Positions 12,424 through 20,860 of a DNA stretch of 64,000 nucleotides are shown piece by piece. Origin of the DNA: Lachnospiraceae bacterium (lineage in GTDB: Bacteria > Bacillota > Clostridia > Lachnospirales > Lachnospiraceae); NCBI GenBank assembly GCA_017500935.1, contig JAFVXW010000016.1, forward strand, positions 124,001 to 188,000, in the 5' to 3' direction. Under the pieces are notes generated by a model. The model was not told where the DNA came from, did not search any database, and saw nothing but the letters and a program-made list of their open reading frames with translations. The position numbers and the translations under genes are program-made. Each line of letters starts with the position of its first letter. Position 1 is the stretch's first letter.

Positions 12424-13764
12424 ATGGCAGCAGATGAATCAGTTTTAAAAAGGGTACTCCCTCATAGTATTGAAGCGGAACAGTCCGTCATCGGCTCCAT
12501 GATCATGGACAGAGAGGCCATTGTGGTGGCGTCCGAACTTATCAGCGGCGAGGATTTTTATAACAAACAGTACGGTGTGCTGTTTGAATCCATGGTAGAG
12601 CTCAATGATGCCGCAAGACCGGTGGATCTGGTAACGCTGCAGGATAAGCTGAAAGAAAAAGATGTTCCGCCGGAAATCTCAAGCCTTGAGTTTATCAGAG
12701 ATCTGATCACGGCGGTGCCGACCTCGGCAAATGTAAAGTATTATGCCAATATCGTGGCAGAAAAGGCAACTTTGCGTAAGCTGATCCGGCTGAATGAAGA
12801 GATCGCCAACTCCTGCTATGCCGGCAAGGACAGCATGGAAACTATTTTGGAGACGACGGAAAAAAAGATATTCAATCTGGTGCAGCGCCGTAATACCGGT
12901 GATTTTGTGCCGATCCGTCAGGTTGTTATGAACGCCATGGAAAAGATTGAAAAAGCTTCCCGCAGCAAGGGCAACGTAACGGGAATCCCGACCGGCTTTA
13001 TTGATCTGGATTACAAAACAGCAGGCCTTCAGCCTTCGGACCTGATCCTGATCGCGGCGCGTCCTTCCATGGGTAAAACGGCGTTTGTTTTGAATATTGC
13101 ACAGAATGTGGCATTTAAAAACAATATGACCGTGGCGATGTTCAGTCTGGAAATGAGTAAGGAACAGTTCGTAAACCGTCTGTTTTCCCTGGAATCCAAA
13201 GTGGATTCCCAGCATCTGCGTACAGGTAATCTGACTGACGCTGAGTGGGAAAGCCTGATCGAAAGTGCAGGTGTTATCGGCCGTTCCAATCTGATTATCG
13301 ATGATACGCCCGGTATTTCCATCGCGGAGCTGCGTTCCAAATGCCGTAAATATAAGCTGGAACATGATCTGAAGCTGATCATCATCGACTACCTGCAGCT
13401 GATGAGCGGCAGCGGCAGCAGGGCATCCGATTCCAGACAGCAGGAAATTTCAGATATTTCCCGTTCCTTAAAAGCTCTTGCCAGAGAACTGCAGGTACCT
13501 GTCATTGCACTGTCACAGCTGTCCCGTGCGGTGGAACAAAGACCTGATCACAGACCCATGCTTTCTGACCTGCGTGAATCCGGTGCGATCGAGCAGGACG
13601 CGGACGTGGTTATGTTTTTATACCGTGATGATTACTATAATCATGATACGGAGAAAAAGGGAATTGCAGAAGTTATCATTGCAAAACAGAGAAACGGTCC
13701 GATCGGTACCATTGAACTGGTATGGCTGCCTGATTACACCAAATTTGCAAATCTGCAGAAATAA
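12424..13764 (+). CDS. dnaB: Replicative DNA helicase DnaB (DnaC of Bacillus)
   Basis: Hexameric 5'-3' helicase at the replication fork. Seen in 446 residues: DnaB N-terminal helical domain starting LPHSIEAEQSVIGSM, and the RecA-like C-terminal domain with Walker A ARPSMGKTAF near residue 215, MFSLEMSKEQ near 240, Walker B LIIIDYLQLM near 320, and SQLSRAVEQR plus SDLRESGAIEQDAD near 360-388. No intein. The ribosome site AAGGAAGTG precedes the ATG. The gene ends with an intrinsic terminator. Its loader candidates dnaI and dnaD are in the same window at 54.7-56.8 kb. Confidence 0.97.
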   Translation: MAADESVLKRVLPHSIEAEQSVIGSMIMDREAIVVASELISGEDFYNKQYGVLFESMVELNDAARPVDLVTLQDKLKEKDVPPEISSLEFIRDLITAVPTSANVKYYANIVAEKATLRKLIRLNEEIANSCYAGKDSMETILETTEKKIFNLVQRRNTGDFVPIRQVVMNAMEKIEKASRSKGNVTGIPTGFIDLDYKTAGLQPSDLILIAARPSMGKTAFVLNIAQNVAFKNNMTVAMFSLEMSKEQFVNRLFSLESKVDSQHLRTGNLTDAEWESLIESAGVIGRSNLIIDDTPGISIAELRSKCRKYKLEHDLKLIIIDYLQLMSGSGSRASDSRQQEISDISRSLKALARELQVPVIALSQLSRAVEQRPDHRPMLSDLRESGAIEQDADVVMFLYRDDYYNHDTEKKGIAEVIIAKQRNGPIGTIELVWLPDYTKFANLQK

Positions 13765-13781
13765 CCAAATAAGATCAAACA

Positions 13782-13812
13782 AAAAAAGCATTCATCAAAT
13801 GAATGCTTTTTT
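13782..13812 (+). terminator. Terminator of the gdpP-rplI-dnaB operon
   Basis: A 14-bp stem (13782-13795 with 13799-13812), loop CAA, ending in TTTTTT. The A-rich 5' arm makes it usable on the minus strand as well. Confidence 0.9.
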
Positions 13813-13869
13813 CTTTGGTCAAATGTAATTGCCGGTTTGACTGATGAGTTAGCGGGAAACCCGTGTGAC

Positions 13870-14040
13870 TCAGCCTTCTTCGATAGCGCCTACAGGGCAA
13901 GCGCCTGCGCAGGAACCGCAGTCGATGCACTTAGCGGGATCGATTTCGAATTTGCCATCGCCCATGCTGATAGCGCCAACGGGGCAAGCACCTTCACAAG
14001 TACCGCAGCAGATGCAAGCATCTTTAATAACGTATGCCAT
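13870..14040 (-). CDS. 2[4Fe-4S] ferredoxin
   Basis: Small cytoplasmic electron carrier, 56 residues, the clostridial ferredoxin length. Two CxxCxxCxxxCP motifs are visible (CICCGTCEGACP and CIDCGSCAGACP), each ligating one [4Fe-4S] cluster, with the usual pseudo-twofold symmetry. The start MAYVIKDACI is chosen because AAGGAGGAAATC lies directly upstream; the frame is open 22 codons earlier without a ribosome site. It lies downstream of pflA on the same strand (69 bp gap), so it could supply electrons for the SAM cleavage by the activase or serve pyruvate:ferredoxin chemistry; this link is inferred from position only. Confidence 0.93.
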   Translation of the reverse strand: MAYVIKDACICCGTCEGACPVGAISMGDGKFEIDPAKCIDCGSCAGACPVGAIEEG

Positions 14041-14109
14041 TATGATTTCCTCCTTAATGAAAATTGGGTTAACATGTATTTTAATATAAAATTCATGATT
14101 ACACAAGAG

Positions 14110-14874
14110 TTATTTGAGCAGTCCCATTTCCTTTCTGCGGGTACGCATGCCGTCGAGAACGATTTTCTTTAATTCGATAGCCTTGTCCTGGGGCATTGCG
14201 GGGATATCCTTCAAAATATAGTCCATGCCAAGCTGCTCATACTTGGGTTTGCCCATGGTATGGTAGGGCAGGATATCCAGTGCTTTTAAGTTGGTAAACT
14301 GGCCGATAAAATAGCCCAGTCTGTAAAGGTCGTCCGGATCATCTGTCAGGGTGGGAACCACAACATGACGCACCCATGTGTCAACCTTTTTTTCGTTCAG
14401 ATATTCCAGAAATGCCAGAATACCTTCAATGGACTGGCGGGTCAGCTGTTTGTGCTTCTCGGGATCGATATGCTTGATGTCCAGCATGACAAGATCGGTC
14501 ACGGCAAGGAGCTTATCCAGCTTTTCAAACCAGTCGGCGCTGCGCTTGGGGTGAAAAGCAATACCGGAAGTATCCAGACAGGTGTGGACATTGTTTTCTT
14601 TGGCGATGGTAAAAAGCTCAGTGACAAATTCAACCTGCATCAGAGGTTCGCCGCCGGTTACGGTGATGCCGCCTGTTTTGTAGAAGCTTTCATTGCGCTT
14701 GTACTGTTCAAAGATCTTGGCGGGTTCCATCAGGAGACCGCCCTGCATGGGCCAGGTGTCAGGGTTGTGGCAATACGCACAGCGCATGGGACATCCCTGT
14801 ACAAAAACAACGTAGCGTACGCCGGGGCCGTCTACAGTTCCAAAACTTTCAAGTGAGTGTATTCTGCCTTGCAT
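14110..14874 (-). CDS. pflA: Pyruvate formate-lyase activating enzyme (radical SAM)
   Basis: Generates the glycyl radical on PFL by reductive cleavage of S-adenosylmethionine; cytoplasmic. The 254 residues carry the CxxxCxxC cluster motif at Cys28, Cys32 and Cys35 (QGCPMRCAYC), preceded by SFGTVDGPGVRYVVF, and TGGEPLMQ near residue 75 (SAM-binding GGE). Length and motifs match short PflA of Firmicutes; the two extra ferredoxin-like clusters of other glycyl-radical activases are absent. AAAGGAAATC precedes the ATG. The gene is 2 kb from pflB and on the opposite strand. Its natural substrate here should be the free glycyl-radical domain at 19194. Confidence 0.95.
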   Translation of the reverse strand: MQGRIHSLESFGTVDGPGVRYVVFVQGCPMRCAYCHNPDTWPMQGGLLMEPAKIFEQYKRNESFYKTGGITVTGGEPLMQVEFVTELFTIAKENNVHTCLDTSGIAFHPKRSADWFEKLDKLLAVTDLVMLDIKHIDPEKHKQLTRQSIEGILAFLEYLNEKKVDTWVRHVVVPTLTDDPDDLYRLGYFIGQFTNLKALDILPYHTMGKPKYEQLGMDYILKDIPAMPQDKAIELKKIVLDGMRTRRKEMGLLK

Positions 14875-14916
14875 GATGATTTCCTTTTTAAATTAAGATT
14901 GATTTTTACAAAATCC

Positions 14917-14945
14917 AGTATACTATTTCCGGAGAAAAAATGCAA
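14917..14945 (-). promoter_or_regulatory. Promoter of pflA-ferredoxin
   Basis: Minus strand: TTGCAT, 17-bp spacer, TATACT. It is divergent from the promoter at 14966, with the two -35 boxes only 20 bp apart, so one regulator could control both. Confidence 0.75.
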
Positions 14946-14965
14946 TCCTTCTTGTCAGGAATAGG

Positions 14966-14994
14966 TTGCCAGATTCAGGGGAATGTATTATACT
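14966..14994 (+). promoter_or_regulatory. Promoter of the DUF1858 gene
   Basis: TTGCCA (14966-14971), 17-bp spacer, TATACT (14989-14994), about 40 bp upstream of the start codon. Confidence 0.75.
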
Positions 14995-15034
14995 GAATAA
15001 TGCACAGCAATCGTTTCAAAAGGAGGAATTTGTG

Positions 15035-15226
15035 ATGGCTAAGTTTACCAAGGATATGACAATCGGCGAAGCATTACGTCTTGATATGAATATTGCACCT
15101 GTTCTGTTAGAGATCGGTATGCATTGTCTTGGATGCCCTTCCGCACAGGCTGAGACCCTGGAAGAGGCTGCTATGGTTCATGGCATCAACGTAGATGATC
15201 TGATGAGCAAGCTGAATGCAGTATAA
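15035..15226 (+). CDS. DUF1858 protein (hybrid-cluster-protein-associated redox disulfide domain)
   Basis: A 63-residue cytoplasmic protein consisting of a single DUF1858/TIGR03980 domain: [10 protein letters not shown] at the start, [20 protein letters not shown] in the middle with a CxxC pair, and a C-terminal helix. The family is found alone or fused to redox proteins in anaerobes; its biochemical role is not established, but the CxxC suggests thiol-disulfide or metal chemistry. The ATG at 15035 follows AGGAGG by the usual spacing; the frame is open further up without a site. Transcribed divergently from pflA, from a promoter placed back to back with that of pflA, so a role in anaerobic metabolism is plausible. 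Confidence 0.85.
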
Positions 15227-15242
15227 GCATTTTGGTTTTCGG

Positions 15243-15276
15243 AAAACGGCGTAACACAGTTGCGTCGTTTTTTCGT
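15243..15276 (+). terminator. Terminator after the DUF1858 gene
   Basis: A 13-bp stem with two wobble pairs (15243-15255 with 15259-15271), loop ACA, then TTTCGTTTTA. Confidence 0.85.
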
Positions 15277-15317
15277 TTTATATGTACATTTTTTTATAGG
15301 TTCAGGGGAGGGATATC

Positions 15318-16637
15318 ATGTCTGCTGTTACTGTTGATTTTAATCGGATCGTTGGAAAGATCAAACCCATGCATGCTGTCAATAACGGCCCTCAAAAGGC
15401 AGGAAGTGATCAGACCAGAGGAAACATGGATACCTGGATCAAAGCAGGGATTCCCTATGCAAGAAACCATGACGCCTCTTTTTGTGCTGCTTACGGCGGT
15501 GAGCATACCGTGGATATACACAGTATTTTCCCGGATTTTAATGCGGATGTAAATGATCCGGCCTCTTATGACTTTCTGCTGACAGACGGCTACTGCCGGA
15601 CAATACAGGAAGGCAATACCAAAGTTTTTTACCGGCTGGGAAGCAAGATCGAGCATTGGGCAAAAAAATACGGCACACTTCCGCCTGCAGATTTTCAGAA
15701 ATGGGCAGAAATCTGCGAACATATTATTATGCACTACACGGAAGGGTGGGCTGACGGATTTTGGTGGGATATTGCATACTGGGAAATCTGGAATGAGCCG
15801 GATCTGGATCCCGATGACAGTCTGAATAAGAGAACCTGGGGCGGCACGGAGGCGGAATTTTTTGAACTGTACCGTCTGACGGCGTGTCATTTAAAGAAAA
15901 GATTTCCGCATTTAAAGATCGGCGGCCCTGCTGTTGCTTATGATATGGAATGGACAGAACGGTTTTTTGCTGCCATGTCGAAGGCTGAGGTCCCCATTGA
16001 CTTTTTTTCCTGGCACTGTTATCTGACTGATCCCAAGGAGATGATCGCCAGAGAAAATCAGGTTCACATACTTTTGGAAAAATACGGATATGCAGATGCG
16101 GAGAGTATCTGCAATGAATGGAATTATGTAAAAAACTGGGATACGCTTTTTGTGTACAGCATAGAACAGATCATTTCCATGAAAGGTGCAGCGCTGAATG
16201 CGGCATGTATGCTGGCCTGCCAGCAGAGCACCATGGATATGCTGATGTATTATGATGCCCGCATTGATATCTGTTTCAACGGTCTGTTTGATTTTTATAC
16301 CCTGCGTCCCCTGAAAGGATATTATGGAATCTGCATGTTCAATGAACTTTACAAAATGGGACAGTCTGCAGTGTGTGAGATTGAGGGAGAACAGCTGTAT
16401 GCGGCGGCTGCCTGCAGTGAGGATGGAAGCAGTGCGGTCATGATCTGTTATTATACCGATGATGATCGGGAAAAGAACAATAAAACGGTTAAACTGCATG
16501 TATCCGGCGGAGCGGATTGCTATGAAGTGATTCTTCTGGACAAAGACCATAATATGGAAGAAAACGGCAGTGTAAACAGCAAAGATCAGATTGAGATGCG
16601 GCCCAACAGTGTGGTGCTTTTGAGAGCAGGCATGTGA
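15318..16637 (+). CDS. Glycoside hydrolase of the GH39 type (beta-xylosidase-like)
   Basis: A 439-residue predicted cytoplasmic enzyme (no signal peptide). Seen: an (alpha/beta)8 barrel with HDASF near residue 51, YWEIWNEPDLDP at about 155 (Glu of NEP is the acid/base), and ICNEWNY near 265 (Glu is the likely nucleophile), followed by a small C-terminal beta domain. The pair NEP and NEWN with their spacing fits clan GH-A family 39, whose members act on beta-xylosides or alpha-iduronides; the exact substrate cannot be told. GGGAGGGATATC precedes the ATG. It sits between the DUF1858 gene and pflB, each with its own control signals, so it looks like an independent unit. Confidence 0.8.
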   Translation: MSAVTVDFNRIVGKIKPMHAVNNGPQKAGSDQTRGNMDTWIKAGIPYARNHDASFCAAYGGEHTVDIHSIFPDFNADVNDPASYDFLLTDGYCRTIQEGNTKVFYRLGSKIEHWAKKYGTLPPADFQKWAEICEHIIMHYTEGWADGFWWDIAYWEIWNEPDLDPDDSLNKRTWGGTEAEFFELYRLTACHLKKRFPHLKIGGPAVAYDMEWTERFFAAMSKAEVPIDFFSWHCYLTDPKEMIARENQVHILLEKYGYADAESICNEWNYVKNWDTLFVYSIEQIISMKGAALNAACMLACQQSTMDMLMYYDARIDICFNGLFDFYTLRPLKGYYGICMFNELYKMGQSAVCEIEGEQLYAAAACSEDGSSAVMICYYTDDDREKNNKTVKLHVSGGADCYEVILLDKDHNMEENGSVNSKDQIEMRPNSVVLLRAGM

Positions 16638-16734
16638 GATTCGGCATATGGAAATGGATCGGAAACATATGGCAGAATCCACAAAAAAACAGTAAAACAG
16701 GGCAGCTTGTATGGAAAAAAGTACACGTATCGGC

Positions 16735-16763
16735 TTGACCTTGAAAGGCTTGTAACATATAAT
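16735..16763 (+). promoter_or_regulatory. Strong promoter of the split pyruvate formate-lyase locus
   Basis: TTGACC (16735-16740), 17-bp spacer, TATAAT (16758-16763). A leader of about 98 bases follows before pflB. Confidence 0.85.
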
Positions 16764-16800
16764 AAAAGCACAGGATTGGAGCAGTAATATGTACCCATTC

Positions 16801-16820
16801 ACAGCAGCTTTTGCTGCTGT
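16801..16820 (+). promoter_or_regulatory. Hairpin in the pflB leader
   Basis: A perfect 8-bp stem ACAGCAGC/GCTGCTGT with a TTTT loop, 30 bases after the predicted transcription start and 47 bases before the start codon. No T tract follows, so it is not a classical terminator; a 5' stabiliser is the simplest reading. Confidence 0.6.
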
Positions 16821-16867
16821 ATCAACTATTAACCTATATTTATTCAAAACACAGGAGGCTTTTCAAA

Positions 16868-18907
16868 ATGAGAACAGAATGGACTGGTTTTGTTGGCGGC
16901 AAGTGGGATCGCGAAGTTAACGTTCGTGATTTCATCCAGAGAAACTACACCCCTTACTACGGTGACGACGAGTTCCTGGCAGGCCCCACTCAGAACACAA
17001 CAGATTTATGGAATCAGGTACTTGATTTACAGAAACAGGAACGTGAAGCAGGCGGCGTTCTGGACATGGACACCAAAGTGATCTCCACCATCACTTCCCA
17101 TGCTCCCGGTTACCTTGACAAGTCCAAAGAAACCATCGTTGGTTTCCAGACTGATAAGCCCTTTAAGCGTTCCCTGCAGCCTTACGGCGGTATCCGTATG
17201 GCAGAAAAGGCTTGTGCAGATAACGGCTACACTGTAGATCCCGAAATCTCCGAGTTCTTCAGCATTCACAGAAAAACACACAACGCTGGCTGCTTCGATG
17301 CTTACAATGCAGAGATGAGAGCTTGCCGTTCTTCCCACGTTATTACCGGTCTTCCGGATGCTTATGGCCGTGGCCGTATCATCGGTGACTACAGAAGAGT
17401 TGCTCTGTACGGTATTGACAGACTGATCGAAGACAAAGAAGATCAGAAGAACTCTACCGGTAAGGTTATGACCGATGACGTTATCCGTCTTCGTGAAGAA
17501 ATCTCCGAGCAGATCAAAGCTCTGAAAGAAATGAAAGTTATGGCAGCTTCTTACGGCTTCGATATCTCCAAGCCCGCTGCTGACGTTAAGGAAGCTATCC
17601 AGTGGACTTACTTCGGTTACCTCTGCGCAGTTAAAGAGCAGAACGGTGCTGCTATGTCCCTTGGCCGTACTTCCACTTTCCTTGATGTATATGCACAGAG
17701 AGACCTTGAGTCCGGCAAATACACCGAAGCTGAAATTCAGGAATTCGTTGACCACTTCATCATGAAGCTGCGTCTGATCAAGTTCGCTCGTACTCCTGAA
17801 TACAACAACCTGTTCGCAGGCGACCCTGTATGGGTAACCGAATCCATCGGTGGTGTAGGCGTTGACGGCCGTCCTCTGGTTACCAAGATGAGCTTCCGTT
17901 ACCTGAACACCCTGTCCAACCTGGGCGCTTCTCCCGAACCCAACCTTACCGTTCTCTGGTCCACCAGACTTCCTGAGAACTTCAAGAAGTACTGTGCTAA
18001 GATGTCCATCCTGACCTCTTCCATCCAGTACGAGAACGACGACCTGATGAGAGCAGTTCATGCCGACGACTACGGCATCGCTTGCTGCGTATCCTCCATG
18101 GTTATCGGTAAGGAAATGCAGTTCTTCGGCGCACGTGCTAACCTGGCTAAGTGCTTACTGTACGCTCTGAATGGTGGTGTTGACGAAGTAACCAAGAAGC
18201 AGGTTGGTCCTAAGTACCGTCCTGTTGTTGGCGAAGTTCTTGAATACAATGACGTTATGGACAAGTTCATGGATATGATGGAATGGCTTGCTGACGTTTA
18301 TGTAAACACTCTGAACATCATCCACTACATGCATGACAAGTACTGCTATGAAAGATCCGAAATGGCTCTTCATGACAGAGACGTTAAGAGATATTTCGCT
18401 ACCGGTATCGCAGGTCTGTCCATCGTTGCTGACTCCCTGTCCGCTATCAAGTATGCGAAGGTTGAAGTTGTAAGAGACGAAGATGGTATCATCGTTGACT
18501 TCAAGACCACTGGTGAATTCCCTAAATACGGTAACGACGACGACCGCGTTGACTTTATCGCTCAGGAAATCATCCACAAGTTCATGACCGCTATCAGAAG
18601 ACATCACACCTATAGAAACGGTCTGCCTACTACCTCCATCCTTACCATTACCTCCAACGTAACTTATGGTAAGGCTACCGGCAGCACTCCTGACGGACGT
18701 CGTAAAGGCCAGCCTTTCGCACCCGGTGCTAACCCTATGCATGGCCGCGATACTCACGGTGCTATCGCATCCCTGTCTTCCGTATCCAAGCTGCCTTTCA
18801 ATGATGCACAGGACGGTATCTCCAATACCTTCACCATCATCCCCGGCGCTCTTGGTAAAGAAGATAAGATCTTCGCAGGCGATCTTGAAATCGATCTGAA
18901 CAACTAA
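16868..18907 (+). CDS. pflB: Pyruvate formate-lyase catalytic chain without glycyl-radical domain
   Basis: Converts pyruvate and CoA to acetyl-CoA and formate. The 679 residues cover the PFL barrel: WTGFVGGKW at the start, and [10 protein letters not shown] with the catalytic pair Cys406-Cys407 (equivalent to Cys418-Cys419 of E. coli). Near the end come [20 protein letters not shown] and [20 protein letters not shown]. It then stops about 10 residues later. The family is about 740-760 residues because a further 70-80 carry the RVSGYAV radical loop; that part is absent here and is encoded separately at 19194. The stop is clean, and the two downstream genes have their own ribosome sites, so this is not a frameshift. 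AGGAGG precedes the ATG. Codon choice is strongly biased (CAC, TTC, AAC), as in a very highly expressed gene. Confidence 0.93.
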
Positions 18908-18936
18908 TCGTTTCGAATTATTAACAGGAGACTGTT

Positions 18937-19137
18937 ATGAATGAAAAAGAAATGATTGAAGATCTCATTAAGATGCTGGATGCAGGAATTGCAAACGGTA
19001 CAGGTCACATTAATGTGAGCTGTGAAGACAGTGAGACTTCAAAGGAAGTGCAGACAATGGGCTGTTCTGATTGCTCCAGAACACCTTTGGCCTGCAGTGT
19101 GCCTACCCTTCATCAGGGACTGGACGACTACAAATAA
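18937..19137 (+). CDS. 66-residue Cys-rich protein, degenerate relative of the glycyl-radical domain
   Basis: Start ATG with AGGAGA upstream, 29 bp after pflB. Residues 7-33 ([20 protein letters not shown] and on) align without gaps to residues 8-34 of the radical-domain protein at 19194, sharing the LxxxLD, G, HxN-V and final Glu positions. After that point the homology ends: instead of the [13 protein letters not shown] loop there is a tail with Cys29, Cys43, Cys46 (CSDC) and Cys53. It therefore cannot carry the radical. Inferred: a duplicate of the radical-domain N-terminus that became a partner, spacer or redox/metal-binding regulator of the split enzyme. I do not recognise a named family; the function is unknown. 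Confidence 0.75.
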
Positions 19138-19145
19138 CAATAACA

Positions 19146-19167
19146 GCGGGTTCCGCAAGGAACCCGC
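19146..19167 (+). promoter_or_regulatory. GNRA-capped intercistronic hairpin
   Basis: A perfect 9-bp stem GCGGGTTCC/GGAACCCGC closed by a GCAA tetraloop, between the Cys-rich gene and the radical-domain gene. No T tract follows. It could block 3' exonucleases or mark a processing site and so set the ratio of the radical-domain protein to the catalytic chain. Confidence 0.75.
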
Positions 19168-19193
19168 GACAGACTAAAAGGAGGACCAAAACA

Positions 19194-19436
19194 ATGGCAG
19201 CAAATCAGGCTCAGGTTGATAACCTGGTATCCTTATTAGATGGCTATGCAGTAAAAGGCGGTCATCATCTGAACGTTAACGTTCTGAACAAAGAAACTCT
19301 TCTGGACGCTCAGAAGCATCCTGAAAACTATCCTCAGCTTACCATCCGTGTTTCCGGCTACGCTGTAAACTTCATTAAGCTGACTCCTGAACAGCAGGCA
19401 GACGTTATCTCCAGAACTTTCCACGAATCCATCTAA
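19194..19436 (+). CDS. Free glycyl-radical domain protein (GrcA/YfiD-like), radical subunit of PFL
   Basis: An 80-residue protein matching the last part of [23 protein letters not shown] at residues 11-30, [19 protein letters not shown], then RVSGYAV with the radical Gly55, and [15 protein letters not shown] at the end. Own ribosome site AGGAGG nine bases before the ATG. In E. coli the similar GrcA (YfiD) is a spare part that rescues PFL cut by oxygen; there, however, PFL has its own radical domain. Here the catalytic chain has none, so this protein is expected to be obligatory and to be the target of PflA. Codon choice is as biased as in pflB. A strong terminator follows. Confidence 0.92.
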
Positions 19437-19457
19437 TTCAGATATGTTTTGAAGATG

Positions 19458-19490
19458 AAAACCCCGGTGATTATTCACCGGGGTTTTTTT
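19458..19490 (+). terminator. Terminator of the split PFL locus
   Basis: Stem of 10 GC-rich base pairs plus flanking A-T pairs (19458-19470 with 19475-19487), loop TTAT, run of seven T. Confidence 0.93.
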
Positions 19491-19506
19491 GAAGGGATTT
19501 TTAAAA

Positions 19507-20319
19507 TTAAAGTTTACTCAGCATCTGCAATGCATTGTCTGCATAAATCAGCTGTGCATGTTCTTTGAAATAAGCCTCGCTGGCAGACGCAGAGCGCTCC
19601 AGACGGCCATATTCGGAAACTACGTTGCAGATACGGTTAAAGTCTTCGGGAGAACTGTTTTCTTCCCTGAGTACAAGGGAGAAGGTTTCCAGAGAAGGTA
19701 TCTGGTAAAGGGAATTGCTGCCGTTGTAGAAGCCCTGCACCACATGGGAAAGTCTGATCAGGATATGCAGGGTGTCAAAATGAAATACACGGACAGCATT
19801 CTGGGCAGTGGCATCGTTTTCAGACTTTGCCGCGGATGTCTGGGAGGAAGATTTTGCCTGTGCAGACGCAGAAGTTCCGGAGCTTGGCTGGGATGCAGCT
19901 TTGGAAGCAGAGGCAAGCTCAGCCTTGCGGCTTTCCTGAATCTGGCGGAAAAGATCAAAAATACTGTCAGTTCCAGCCTGATCTGCAGGCATAAAATCTT
20001 CTGGTTCGATATCTTCAGCGGCATCTTCTTCGGAAGGGGCAAATTTGGCAAAACGGGTATCCAGTTCTTCAGGATCTTCCACCTTGGTTATGATCAGAAC
20101 GATACAGTCCGCATTCAGCGGGATCGCTTCGATCATAAGCGGAATATCATCAGCTTCAAAACCGAATTTGATGGCGGCCTGCTGCATCATGTCACGGAAA
20201 AGATTCTTTGCTTTTTCTGTTCCGTAGGCAAGCTCGCTGATCTTGAGTTCGCGTTCAGCCAGATCAGCCTTGGTCAGAGTACAGCGTATCTGGTGGTCGT
20301 TTACTTTTTCTATTTTCAT
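19507..20319 (-). CDS. mecA: Adaptor protein MecA
   Basis: Delivers substrate proteins to the ClpC-ClpP protease. The 270 residues show the MecA layout: an N-terminal substrate-binding domain beginning MKIEKVNDHQIRCTLTKADL, an acidic then Ala/Ser/Gln-rich linker (about 95-165, low complexity), and a C-terminal ClpC-binding domain with two repeats (FDTLHILIRLSHVV and YFKEHAQLIYADNALQ near the end). The linker is longer than in Bacillus (about 218 residues in total there). AAGGATGTG precedes the ATG. Convergent with the PFL locus. Confidence 0.9.
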   Translation of the reverse strand: MKIEKVNDHQIRCTLTKADLAERELKISELAYGTEKAKNLFRDMMQQAAIKFGFEADDIPLMIEAIPLNADCIVLIITKVEDPEELDTRFAKFAPSEEDAAEDIEPEDFMPADQAGTDSIFDLFRQIQESRKAELASASKAASQPSSGTSASAQAKSSSQTSAAKSENDATAQNAVRVFHFDTLHILIRLSHVVQGFYNGSNSLYQIPSLETFSLVLREENSSPEDFNRICNVVSEYGRLERSASASEAYFKEHAQLIYADNALQMLSKL

Positions 20320-20366
20320 GTAATCACATCCTTATTACAATAATACGTTATATTATGGGTAAAGAT

Positions 20367-20395
20367 ATCATATCTGCAAAAGCGTTTGAAGTCAA
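20367..20395 (-). promoter_or_regulatory. Promoter of mecA
   Basis: Minus strand: TTGACT, 17-bp spacer, TATGAT, about 45 bp upstream of the start codon. Confidence 0.8.
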
Positions 20396-20435
20396 GAACC
20401 TGAATAAAGAGTTTCGTCTTTTTTCATAAATTCAC

Positions 20436-20464
20436 TTGAAAATATAAATGGTATTGGGTATAAT
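20436..20464 (+). promoter_or_regulatory. Strong promoter with no recognised gene for 400 bp
   Basis: TTGAAA (20436-20441), 17-bp spacer, TATAAT (20459-20464), with a G-rich extended region. It points away from mecA into a gene-free stretch. Confidence 0.8.
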
Positions 20465-20470
20465 CATGGC

Positions 20471-20860
20471 AGAGATGATTCTGAACAATTCGTGCCGCAG
20501 GGAGGATTGTTGGAACACTGTATATTTATTCTTTTTATTGAAAATCGCAGGGGCGAGGATGTAGGTCCGGAGTTCCTTCTTAACACTCATCCTATAGTAT
20601 GAGCAGATCTAACAGGTATATGTGCCTGTCAGGAAAATCAAATATTCAATATTTTTCCATTATTTTAAAATTAAAACATTAGGTCATGATATGATTTATT
20701 CGGGTTTTGTTTTTGTGTTCAAAAAAGGCACAGGTTCTGTCATCTCGTTATTTTTTCGCCATTTCGGCTGAACCAGAAAATGTTATCACAAGCGCAGCCG
20801 GCTGATATGGTACGGCGGCGTTCTAAATCCTTTTGACAGTCAAAATGGCGTTAAGGGAGA
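20471..20860 (+). ncRNA. Unidentified transcribed non-coding stretch downstream of the strong promoter
   Basis: About 390 bases without a credible ORF. Local hairpins seen: AACAAT(16)ATTGTT from about 20484, AGGATG(26)CATCCT in the 20550-20590 region, ACAGG(8)CCTGT at about 20610-20627, and an AU-rich GGAAAA...TTTTCC arm pair at about 20632-20658 that could end the transcript. It could be a small RNA or a long leader for the 70-residue gene at 20871. I do not recognise an Rfam family. Confidence 0.35.

Follow-up and report, generated by a model that had tools for sequence, protein, structure and literature searches.

Pyruvate formate-lyase (PFL) is a central enzyme of fermentation and the textbook case of irreversible oxygen damage. 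A small free protein bearing the radical motif RVSGYAV, GrcA/YfiD (TIGR04365), occurs in E. coli and in T4-type phages; according to PMC8683613, YfiD has a disordered N-terminal half and rescues an intact PFL after oxygen cleavage. NCBIfam holds a further family, the 'autonomous glycyl radical cofactor GrcA3' (NF038360), a word not found in the literature that we searched. Here we analyze a 64,000-nucleotide window of a draft bacterial genome (contig JAFVXW010000016.1, positions 124,001 to 188,000), in which a PFL catalytic core, a small cysteine-tailed protein (the accessory) and a free GrcA3 are encoded in that order. Most likely this locus specifies an obligate multi-chain PFL, composed of core and GrcA3 with the accessory as third part.

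Two probable chains of one pyruvate formate-lyase

The core scores 1096 bits on TIGR01255 (cut-off 994.2) and aligns to model positions 2–665 of 744 only, while the 80-residue GrcA3 takes up the complementary positions 663–744. On E. coli PFL (1h16) the core covers residues 8–681 and GrcA3 residues 680–758, a near-exact complement. The segment split off presumably includes the helix preceding the tenth barrel strand. Judged from the two coverages, the break lies just before the segment leading into that strand (numbered as in PMC8683613). The core chain has no glycyl-radical domain, PF01228 covering only 1–51 of 106 and TIGR01255 stopping as above; its C406 and C407 fall on C418 and C419 of 1h16. 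The small protein passes the curated cut-off of NF038360 (160.9 vs. 158 bits), and stays below those of TIGR04365 (GrcA/YfiD; 102.4 vs. 170) and of the GrcA2 model NF008341 (107.5 vs. 145). By eye, AGGAGG ribosome sites precede the core and GrcA3, and AGGAG precedes the middle open reading frame (ORF). The gene for the activating enzyme, pflA, is present nearby; of the 57 other split loci (sampled as described below), 53 likewise contain it in the region fetched.

A sequence-only reading of this stretch had described a 679-residue PflB that keeps its Cys-Cys pair and ends at the radical domain, with that domain supplied as a free 80-residue protein containing RVSGYAV and Gly55, and with strong ribosome sites for each; the profile matches and upstream sequences agree with this description on all counts. 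It had passed over the ORF at 18937–19137, which proves to be a conserved third part and not a bystander.

In such an enzyme, barrel, pyruvate site and Cys pair would come from the core, and GrcA3 would contribute the final helix, strand ten of the barrel, the loop with the glycyl radical and the C-terminal helix; PflA would put the radical on Gly55 of GrcA3, and the core would be inactive by itself. These roles in catalysis, activation and structure are inferred from what is known of the family. Because a core of this kind could not work without GrcA3, the latter would be a subunit here, not a spare for an intact enzyme.

The inventory of the window's own genome (a draft of 3.6 Mb in 87 contigs, 95% complete, with 5.7% contamination) points the same way. 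Neither TIGR01255 nor a PFL-like model found a full-length PFL in this draft, where the sequence-only reading had named a second, intact enzyme as the finding that would speak against it. Among the matches listed, the split locus was the sole one over the TIGR01255 cut-off (6 of 38 first-look candidates scored). On the PFL-like model (all 25 candidates scored), an 845-residue frame on contig C40 reached 823 bits, comparable to the split locus, and the next score was 406 bits; the C40 frame was rejected as a true PFL, with 162 bits on TIGR01255 and 794.9 bits on the PFL2-type model TIGR01774 (cut-off 678.2). Since no intact PFL was found beside the core, GrcA3 must be its radical carrier. The genome is otherwise rich in related sequences: 28 places match the glycyl-radical model and 24 the PFL-like model, amounting to about two dozen glycyl radical enzyme genes in 3.6 Mb, one of which lies in two adjoining open frames of 222 and 77 residues (G000:C79:151451-151871, L135; G and L numbers label our genomes and loci) and is perhaps a decaying gene.

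Codon usage was scored in the window with the core itself as the reference, ribosomal genes being no part of the comparison. GrcA3 scored 0.76 and the middle ORF 0.33; among the other 30 long ORFs the highest value was 0.49, and the median of all 31 was 0.31, in keeping with the earlier claim that the core and the small protein share a codon bias. Per-locus medians were 0.77 for the core against itself, 0.71 for GrcA3, 0.49 for the accessory and 0.42 for other ORFs, and the accessory scored below GrcA3 in all 32 loci scored (of 35 type-A loci; L132, L092 and L133 were left out). We read this, on a scale that ribosomal genes do not enter, as abundant production of core and GrcA3, with less of the accessory being made.

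Table 1. Coordinates of the PFL locus and associated elements within the window.
Feature	Coordinates	Strand	Basis
PFL catalytic core, 679 aa	16868..18907	+	ATG at 16868; TIGR01255 and 1h16 alignment
Core Cys406-Cys407 active-site codons	18083-18088	+	aligned to C418/C419 of E. coli PFL
Cys-tailed accessory, 66 aa	18937..19137	+	35 linked copies aligned (window's included); hhalign; dN/dS
GrcA3, free glycyl-radical domain, 80 aa	19194..19436	+	NF038360; 1h16 680-758
GrcA3 Gly55 codon	19356-19358	+	within RVSGYAV-bearing protein
PflA, PFL-activating radical SAM enzyme, 254 aa	14110..14874	-	TIGR02493 288.3 vs. cut-off 231.75
Strong hairpin without U-run, accessory-grcA3 gap	19146..19167	+	19138-19193 fold -19.6 kcal/mol
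Intrinsic terminator-like hairpin with U-run, 3' of grcA3	19457..19488	+	19437-19500 fold -27.2 kcal/mol

The hairpin between the accessory gene and grcA3 is possibly an mRNA processing or stability element. A conserved intergenic hairpin was considered and dropped: among 33 type-A loci including the window (L092 and L133, missed by the script pattern, were left out), a similar one lies between the middle gene and grcA3 in only three, so that it is not a conserved part, and between core and middle gene in five. No Rfam element reached its gathering score in 13500–20500. The interval between pflA and the PFL operon holds a gene (15035-15226) for a hybrid-cluster-protein-associated redox disulfide protein (DUF1858, TIGR03980), which is also present in 25 of the 57 other split loci; mecA, a negative regulator of competence, lies directly 3' of the operon on the opposite strand (19507-20319), as it does in 19 of the 57.

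Distribution and history of the split

We sampled 150 genomes, one per genus, from the same family (Lachnospiraceae, judging by named relatives). A PFL match over the TIGR01255 cut-off was found in 112; by hand count of rows, 59 genomes have a full-length enzyme and 56 a split core, three of these having both. Adding two genomes whose core is cut by a contig end (G060, G129) gives 58 split genera, the window's own genome included, in each of which a split core is accompanied by a free GrcA3 downstream; the 57 other loci were fetched, and each contains the pair. Two further genomes, with accessory and GrcA3 present and a fragmentary core (G022, G128), stand outside the 58. By hand count, no full-length PFL match turned up in 55 of the 58 split genomes, consistent with the earlier claim that the small protein is essential.

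A scan of species genomes with the accessory gave 535 relatives. In the 80 of them that were examined, the order core, middle gene, GrcA3 is kept throughout, none being fused, although some cores are cut by contig ends. Most of these loci are titled Lachnospiraceae or by genera that we take to belong there (looked up for Eisenbergiella), and some only as bacterium, Eubacteriales or Bacillota; the titles of two (L173, L200) name other groups and are perhaps those of misnamed bins. In a sample of 398 genomes from the phylum (five of them own-family), GrcA3 exceeded its cut-off in two, both own-family and one of them the window's own genome, and the same two gave the only strong accessory matches; seven others gave weak accessory matches only, inside PFL frames. 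The split is the trait of a lineage and is widespread within a single bacterial family.

An assembly error or a recent frameshift, for which the origin of the window in an 87-contig draft might be cited, was rejected and has a negligible probability: the same break recurs in 57 other genera, two of them represented by single-contig genomes (G085, G046), with conserved order, separate ribosome sites and a conserved extra gene. The sequence-only reading had likewise taken the arrangement as stable rather than mutational, and the survey of relatives that it called for, with 57 further split loci and an unbroken order in 80 of 80, upholds that view.

The history of the split was reconstructed from a tree of 86 cores, 56 split and 30 full-length, the latter being a fetched subset of the 59 full-length genomes (L132 and L133, with cores cut at a contig end, were left out of the trees). 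The split cores fall together with five full-length rows in one clade (SH-aLRT 99), which is recovered with support of 100/99 in a 103-row tree that adds 17 PFLs of other families; holding the 56 split rows together without the five is rejected (AU p 0.0025). By their C-terminal domains, the five full-length rows in turn group with GrcA3 (99/94). On the core tree the split/full label needs three changes, which fits one split followed by two re-fusions, with both halves drawn from the split lineage, and repeated independent splitting was set aside in favor of this reading. That the same two pieces were re-joined twice is direct evidence that they work together. One of the re-fused proteins (L032) keeps a Cys linker, TCGCEEVTCAVD, between its core and GrcA3 parts, the other four having none, and no accessory match was found in the five re-fused genomes (two of which, G011 and G074, are 86% and 88% complete).

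These observations bear on a very improbable alternative, that GrcA3 is only a spare part and the core a decayed pseudo-enzyme, with pyruvate cleaved by another enzyme. Although the classic GrcA/YfiD proteins do work as spares (PMC8683613) and a full-length PFL accompanies the split in three of the 58 genomes, the core is 83–90% identical to 19 aligned named relatives and has a codon usage that GrcA3 (0.76) shares and none of the 30 other long ORFs of the window does (at most 0.49); no full-length PFL was found in 55 of the 58 split genomes, and the two pieces have twice been re-fused.

Nine split genomes have a second, unlinked GrcA3. Its neighborhood holds the spoIIIA operon in four (shared by blastp; the Spore_III_AA profile was checked in two), a Crp-type regulator in three (profile checked), and in one, close to the end of a contig, a radical SAM activase; the ninth shares no neighbor. 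The copy in the window's own genome (G000:C18:20069-20299, L134) is divergent from the spoIIIA operon, beside spoIIIAA, and the same neighborhood occurs in G064, G031 and G144. A separately controlled copy would fit a true spare on top of the obligate subunit. It is plausible that a replaceable radical subunit eases repair after oxygen damage, which fits the second copies as well.

As to the ultimate source of GrcA3, an origin in phages is not supported. Of the best 20 among 1539 phage records, 12 are T4-like (79% over 76% of the query) and eight are unannotated (66–83%), three of these coming from faeces and five being named for Staphylococcus, Listeria, Enterococcus or Salmonella.

The cysteine-tailed accessory protein

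The N-terminal half of the accessory shares homology with GrcA3 over the helix and strand of the latter, and a tail of the form GCxDC...LACxVPTL replaces the radical loop. The relation is seen by hhalign (95.3%, E 2.3e-8, 32 columns) and in the matches of the accessory HMM to GrcA3 N-termini (E 1e-7 to 1e-3) and, over the same segment, to a small number of full-length PFLs; the match of the PFL model in G099 and G110 likewise continues beyond the core stop into the accessory stretch, reaching positions 700 and 704. The motif I/V-D-D-I/L-V-x-M-L-D...G-x-G-H-x-N-V is common to the 35 linked copies, most of which also have GCxDC....LACxVPTLxxGLDD, and C46 and C53 are nearly invariant. No Pfam or NCBIfam family matches the accessory at standard limits (at a loose limit, NCBIfam GrcA3 does, E 0.01), a PDB search with its profile gave no significant relative, and no relatives were found on plasmids. 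The ORF is coding and under purifying selection: the median dN/dS is 0.124 for the whole gene, 0.196 for the N-terminal part and 0.069 for the Cys tail, against 0.067 for GrcA3 (76 accessory genes, pairs with dS of 0.1–1.2 only; five of the 80 named loci, L178, L233, L237, L239 and L242, were excluded).

A Cys-bearing counterpart is present in all 58 split genomes, as a linked gene in 35, as a tail of the core (e.g. ECGNQACNIPNIMESIDNE or DCACCEPN) in the 21 loci that have no accessory gene, and as an unlinked gene in two (G002, G130). Two or more cysteines stand at the locus in 56 of the 58, the accessories of L112 and L127 being unlinked; the accessory of L092 has two. Separate and fused tails are intermixed on the tree, with 7 and 8 changes needed (4 and 2 of them forced by branches of good support), and this intermixture suggests that both forms do the same job. 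Of the 150 genomes, 39 gave a strong accessory match (>50 bits). A split core is present in 36 of these and core fragments in two (G022, G128); the last, G006, is 67% complete and has no PFL match. Only one of the 59 full-length-PFL genomes is among the 39 (G132, which is also split). Between core end and strand, cysteines are absent from 24 of 25 full-length PFLs outside the split clade, and the remaining one (L022) has a single Cys.

In E. coli, residues 696–733 of O2-cleaved PFL form a stump needed for YfiD binding; PFL cut at 695 shows no detectable YfiD binding, and the cut-695 core with N-terminally shortened YfiD gives some radical (2.7 vs. 15.9 uM; PMC8683613). Because the split core lacks this stump, and the accessory is related to part of it together with the preceding residues, we propose the accessory as a trans-acting stump or cap at the slot, which GrcA3 would displace. 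Keeping the helix and strand that would enter the core, with its Cys tail in place of the radical loop, the accessory (or the core's own Cys tail) would occupy or mark the radical-domain slot when GrcA3 is absent or damaged, keep the open active site safe, and then hand the slot over to fresh GrcA3. We offer this capping and hand-over role tentatively, at somewhat short of an even chance. The cysteines, kept alone in the 21 core-tail loci, are probably the essential part, as guard thiols, a redox switch or a metal site. Taken as a whole, these split PFLs may be three-part enzymes, with a Cys-tailed mimic of the radical subunit competing for the slot, capping it and handing it over, so that a strict anaerobe could combine an exchangeable radical chain with a thiol guard for the empty or damaged state; we hold this to be less likely than not.

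Two other roles can be drawn from the same features, each of them rather unlikely. The accessory might be a redox or metal-binding regulator, comparable in role to the Fe-S accessory subunits of benzylsuccinate synthase (BSS); by holding a metal or cluster, its cysteines would modulate the docking of GrcA3 or the transfer of the radical. The near-invariance of C46 and C53 among the 35 copies is in its favor, and the low codon bias would suit a sub-stoichiometric regulator, whereas the conserved cysteines are often only two, few for a cluster, and the protein has neither a family assignment beyond the weak GrcA3 match nor a significant PDB relative. Alternatively, the tail might act as a quenching or protecting thiol when the radical chain leaves or oxygen enters, reducing a stray glycyl or thiyl radical or capping the active-site Cys as a disulfide. 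Such a guard would account for the tail being the most constrained part of the accessory (0.069 vs. 0.196), the only part kept in the fused form, and nearly absent from full-length PFLs outside the split clade (24 of 25 lacking Cys there, L022 having one); its placement of the tail near the active site is purely inferential.

Several observations weigh against the multi-chain enzyme as we have drawn it, with its capping accessory. Three split genomes (G085, G119, G132) also carry a full-length PFL, and the window's own genome is a draft in which one could still have been missed. Codon bias is weaker in the accessory than in GrcA3, which speaks against a structural subunit in a one-to-one ratio, and 21 loci keep the Cys tail only, with neither helix nor strand, so that occupation of the slot by the strand is not the whole story. 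The Cys pattern is loose: a strict C..C.(I/V)P or CACxEP occurs in 51 of 58 (50 by script, with L092 corrected), nothing follows the first CxxC in L089 and L097 (in L089 the profile match reads through the stop), L107 shows no more than CC, and the weak match of the unlinked G130 copy (28.9 bits) depends on the motif. Just 74 columns underlie the C-terminal tree; in the 103-row tree, the 17 outgroup PFLs fall into more than one group, long branches occur, and the bootstrap was not fully settled. The AlphaFold model of the core is too poor to use (mean pLDDT 51, from 20 close sequences).

The accessory also has paralogs, with the same helix and strand and a tail YHHGRCDVGSPWA (hhalign to the accessory 95.9%, E 5.6e-9). 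One lies in the window's own genome (G000:C12:214353-214529; L277, L295), with further examples in L152, L153, L154, L155, L158 and L161. A match of >60 bits occurs in 17 of the 150 genera (14 with split PFL, two with fragments, and G089, whose PFL is only partial; a stop interrupts two of the 17 matches), and in 2 of 299 genomes of the phylum sample, both own-family. They are lone genes, no common neighbor or partner gene being found in 12 fetched loci, and are possibly accessories of other glycyl radical enzymes. A third small relative (L156, L157) has the tail CCNxYG...LLDMYTDxNAG; the L157 protein gave no significant family match in profile searches.

Comparison with known systems

In about two fifths (58 of 150) of the sampled genera of a gut family, the radical part of PFL is a separate chain. 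This makes the way in which an anaerobe copes with oxygen-cleavable enzymes directly testable, provides a natural system of radical-domain exchange, and adds an accessory named by no family searched. In these bacteria, counting PFL with whole-length models can be misleading, and so can annotating GrcA3 as no more than a spare cofactor.

The sequence-only reading had left open whether such a split had been described. We found no description of the split PFL, the accessory, the re-fusions or the fused Cys tail in a search that most subscription papers and preprints lay outside. At the same time, GrcA3 is already a curated NCBIfam name, and the closest solved relatives of the core, PDB chains 38la_A and 38lb_A (Formate acetyltransferase), are both outside the 34 PDB chains matched by a GrcA3 query in a 2026 copy of the PDB; others have therefore met such domain-less cores, and the split is not wholly new. 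Chain 38la, with LGKED as its last residues, is perhaps a truncated construct; 38lb continues past the core with GECDMCEMKELDDV, which contains a CxxC (in a CDMC stretch).

Benzylsuccinate synthase likewise has small extra proteins acting on a glycyl radical enzyme, BSS-beta and BSS-gamma; these are HiPIP-like [4Fe-4S] proteins of an enzyme with a built-in radical domain, and regulation of thiyl radical formation by an accessory subunit is at present unique to that system, according to PMC12590467. A PDB profile search showed no sequence relation between our accessory and a BSS-type subunit. The other comparison is with GrcA/YfiD. There, a spare domain serves an intact PFL, whereas no full-length TIGR01255 match was found in the window's own draft genome; the window's GrcA3 lacks the N-terminal half of YfiD and serves a core that has no radical domain of its own. 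Its family is named for an autonomous cofactor, whereas at this locus GrcA3 is the only radical domain for its PFL.

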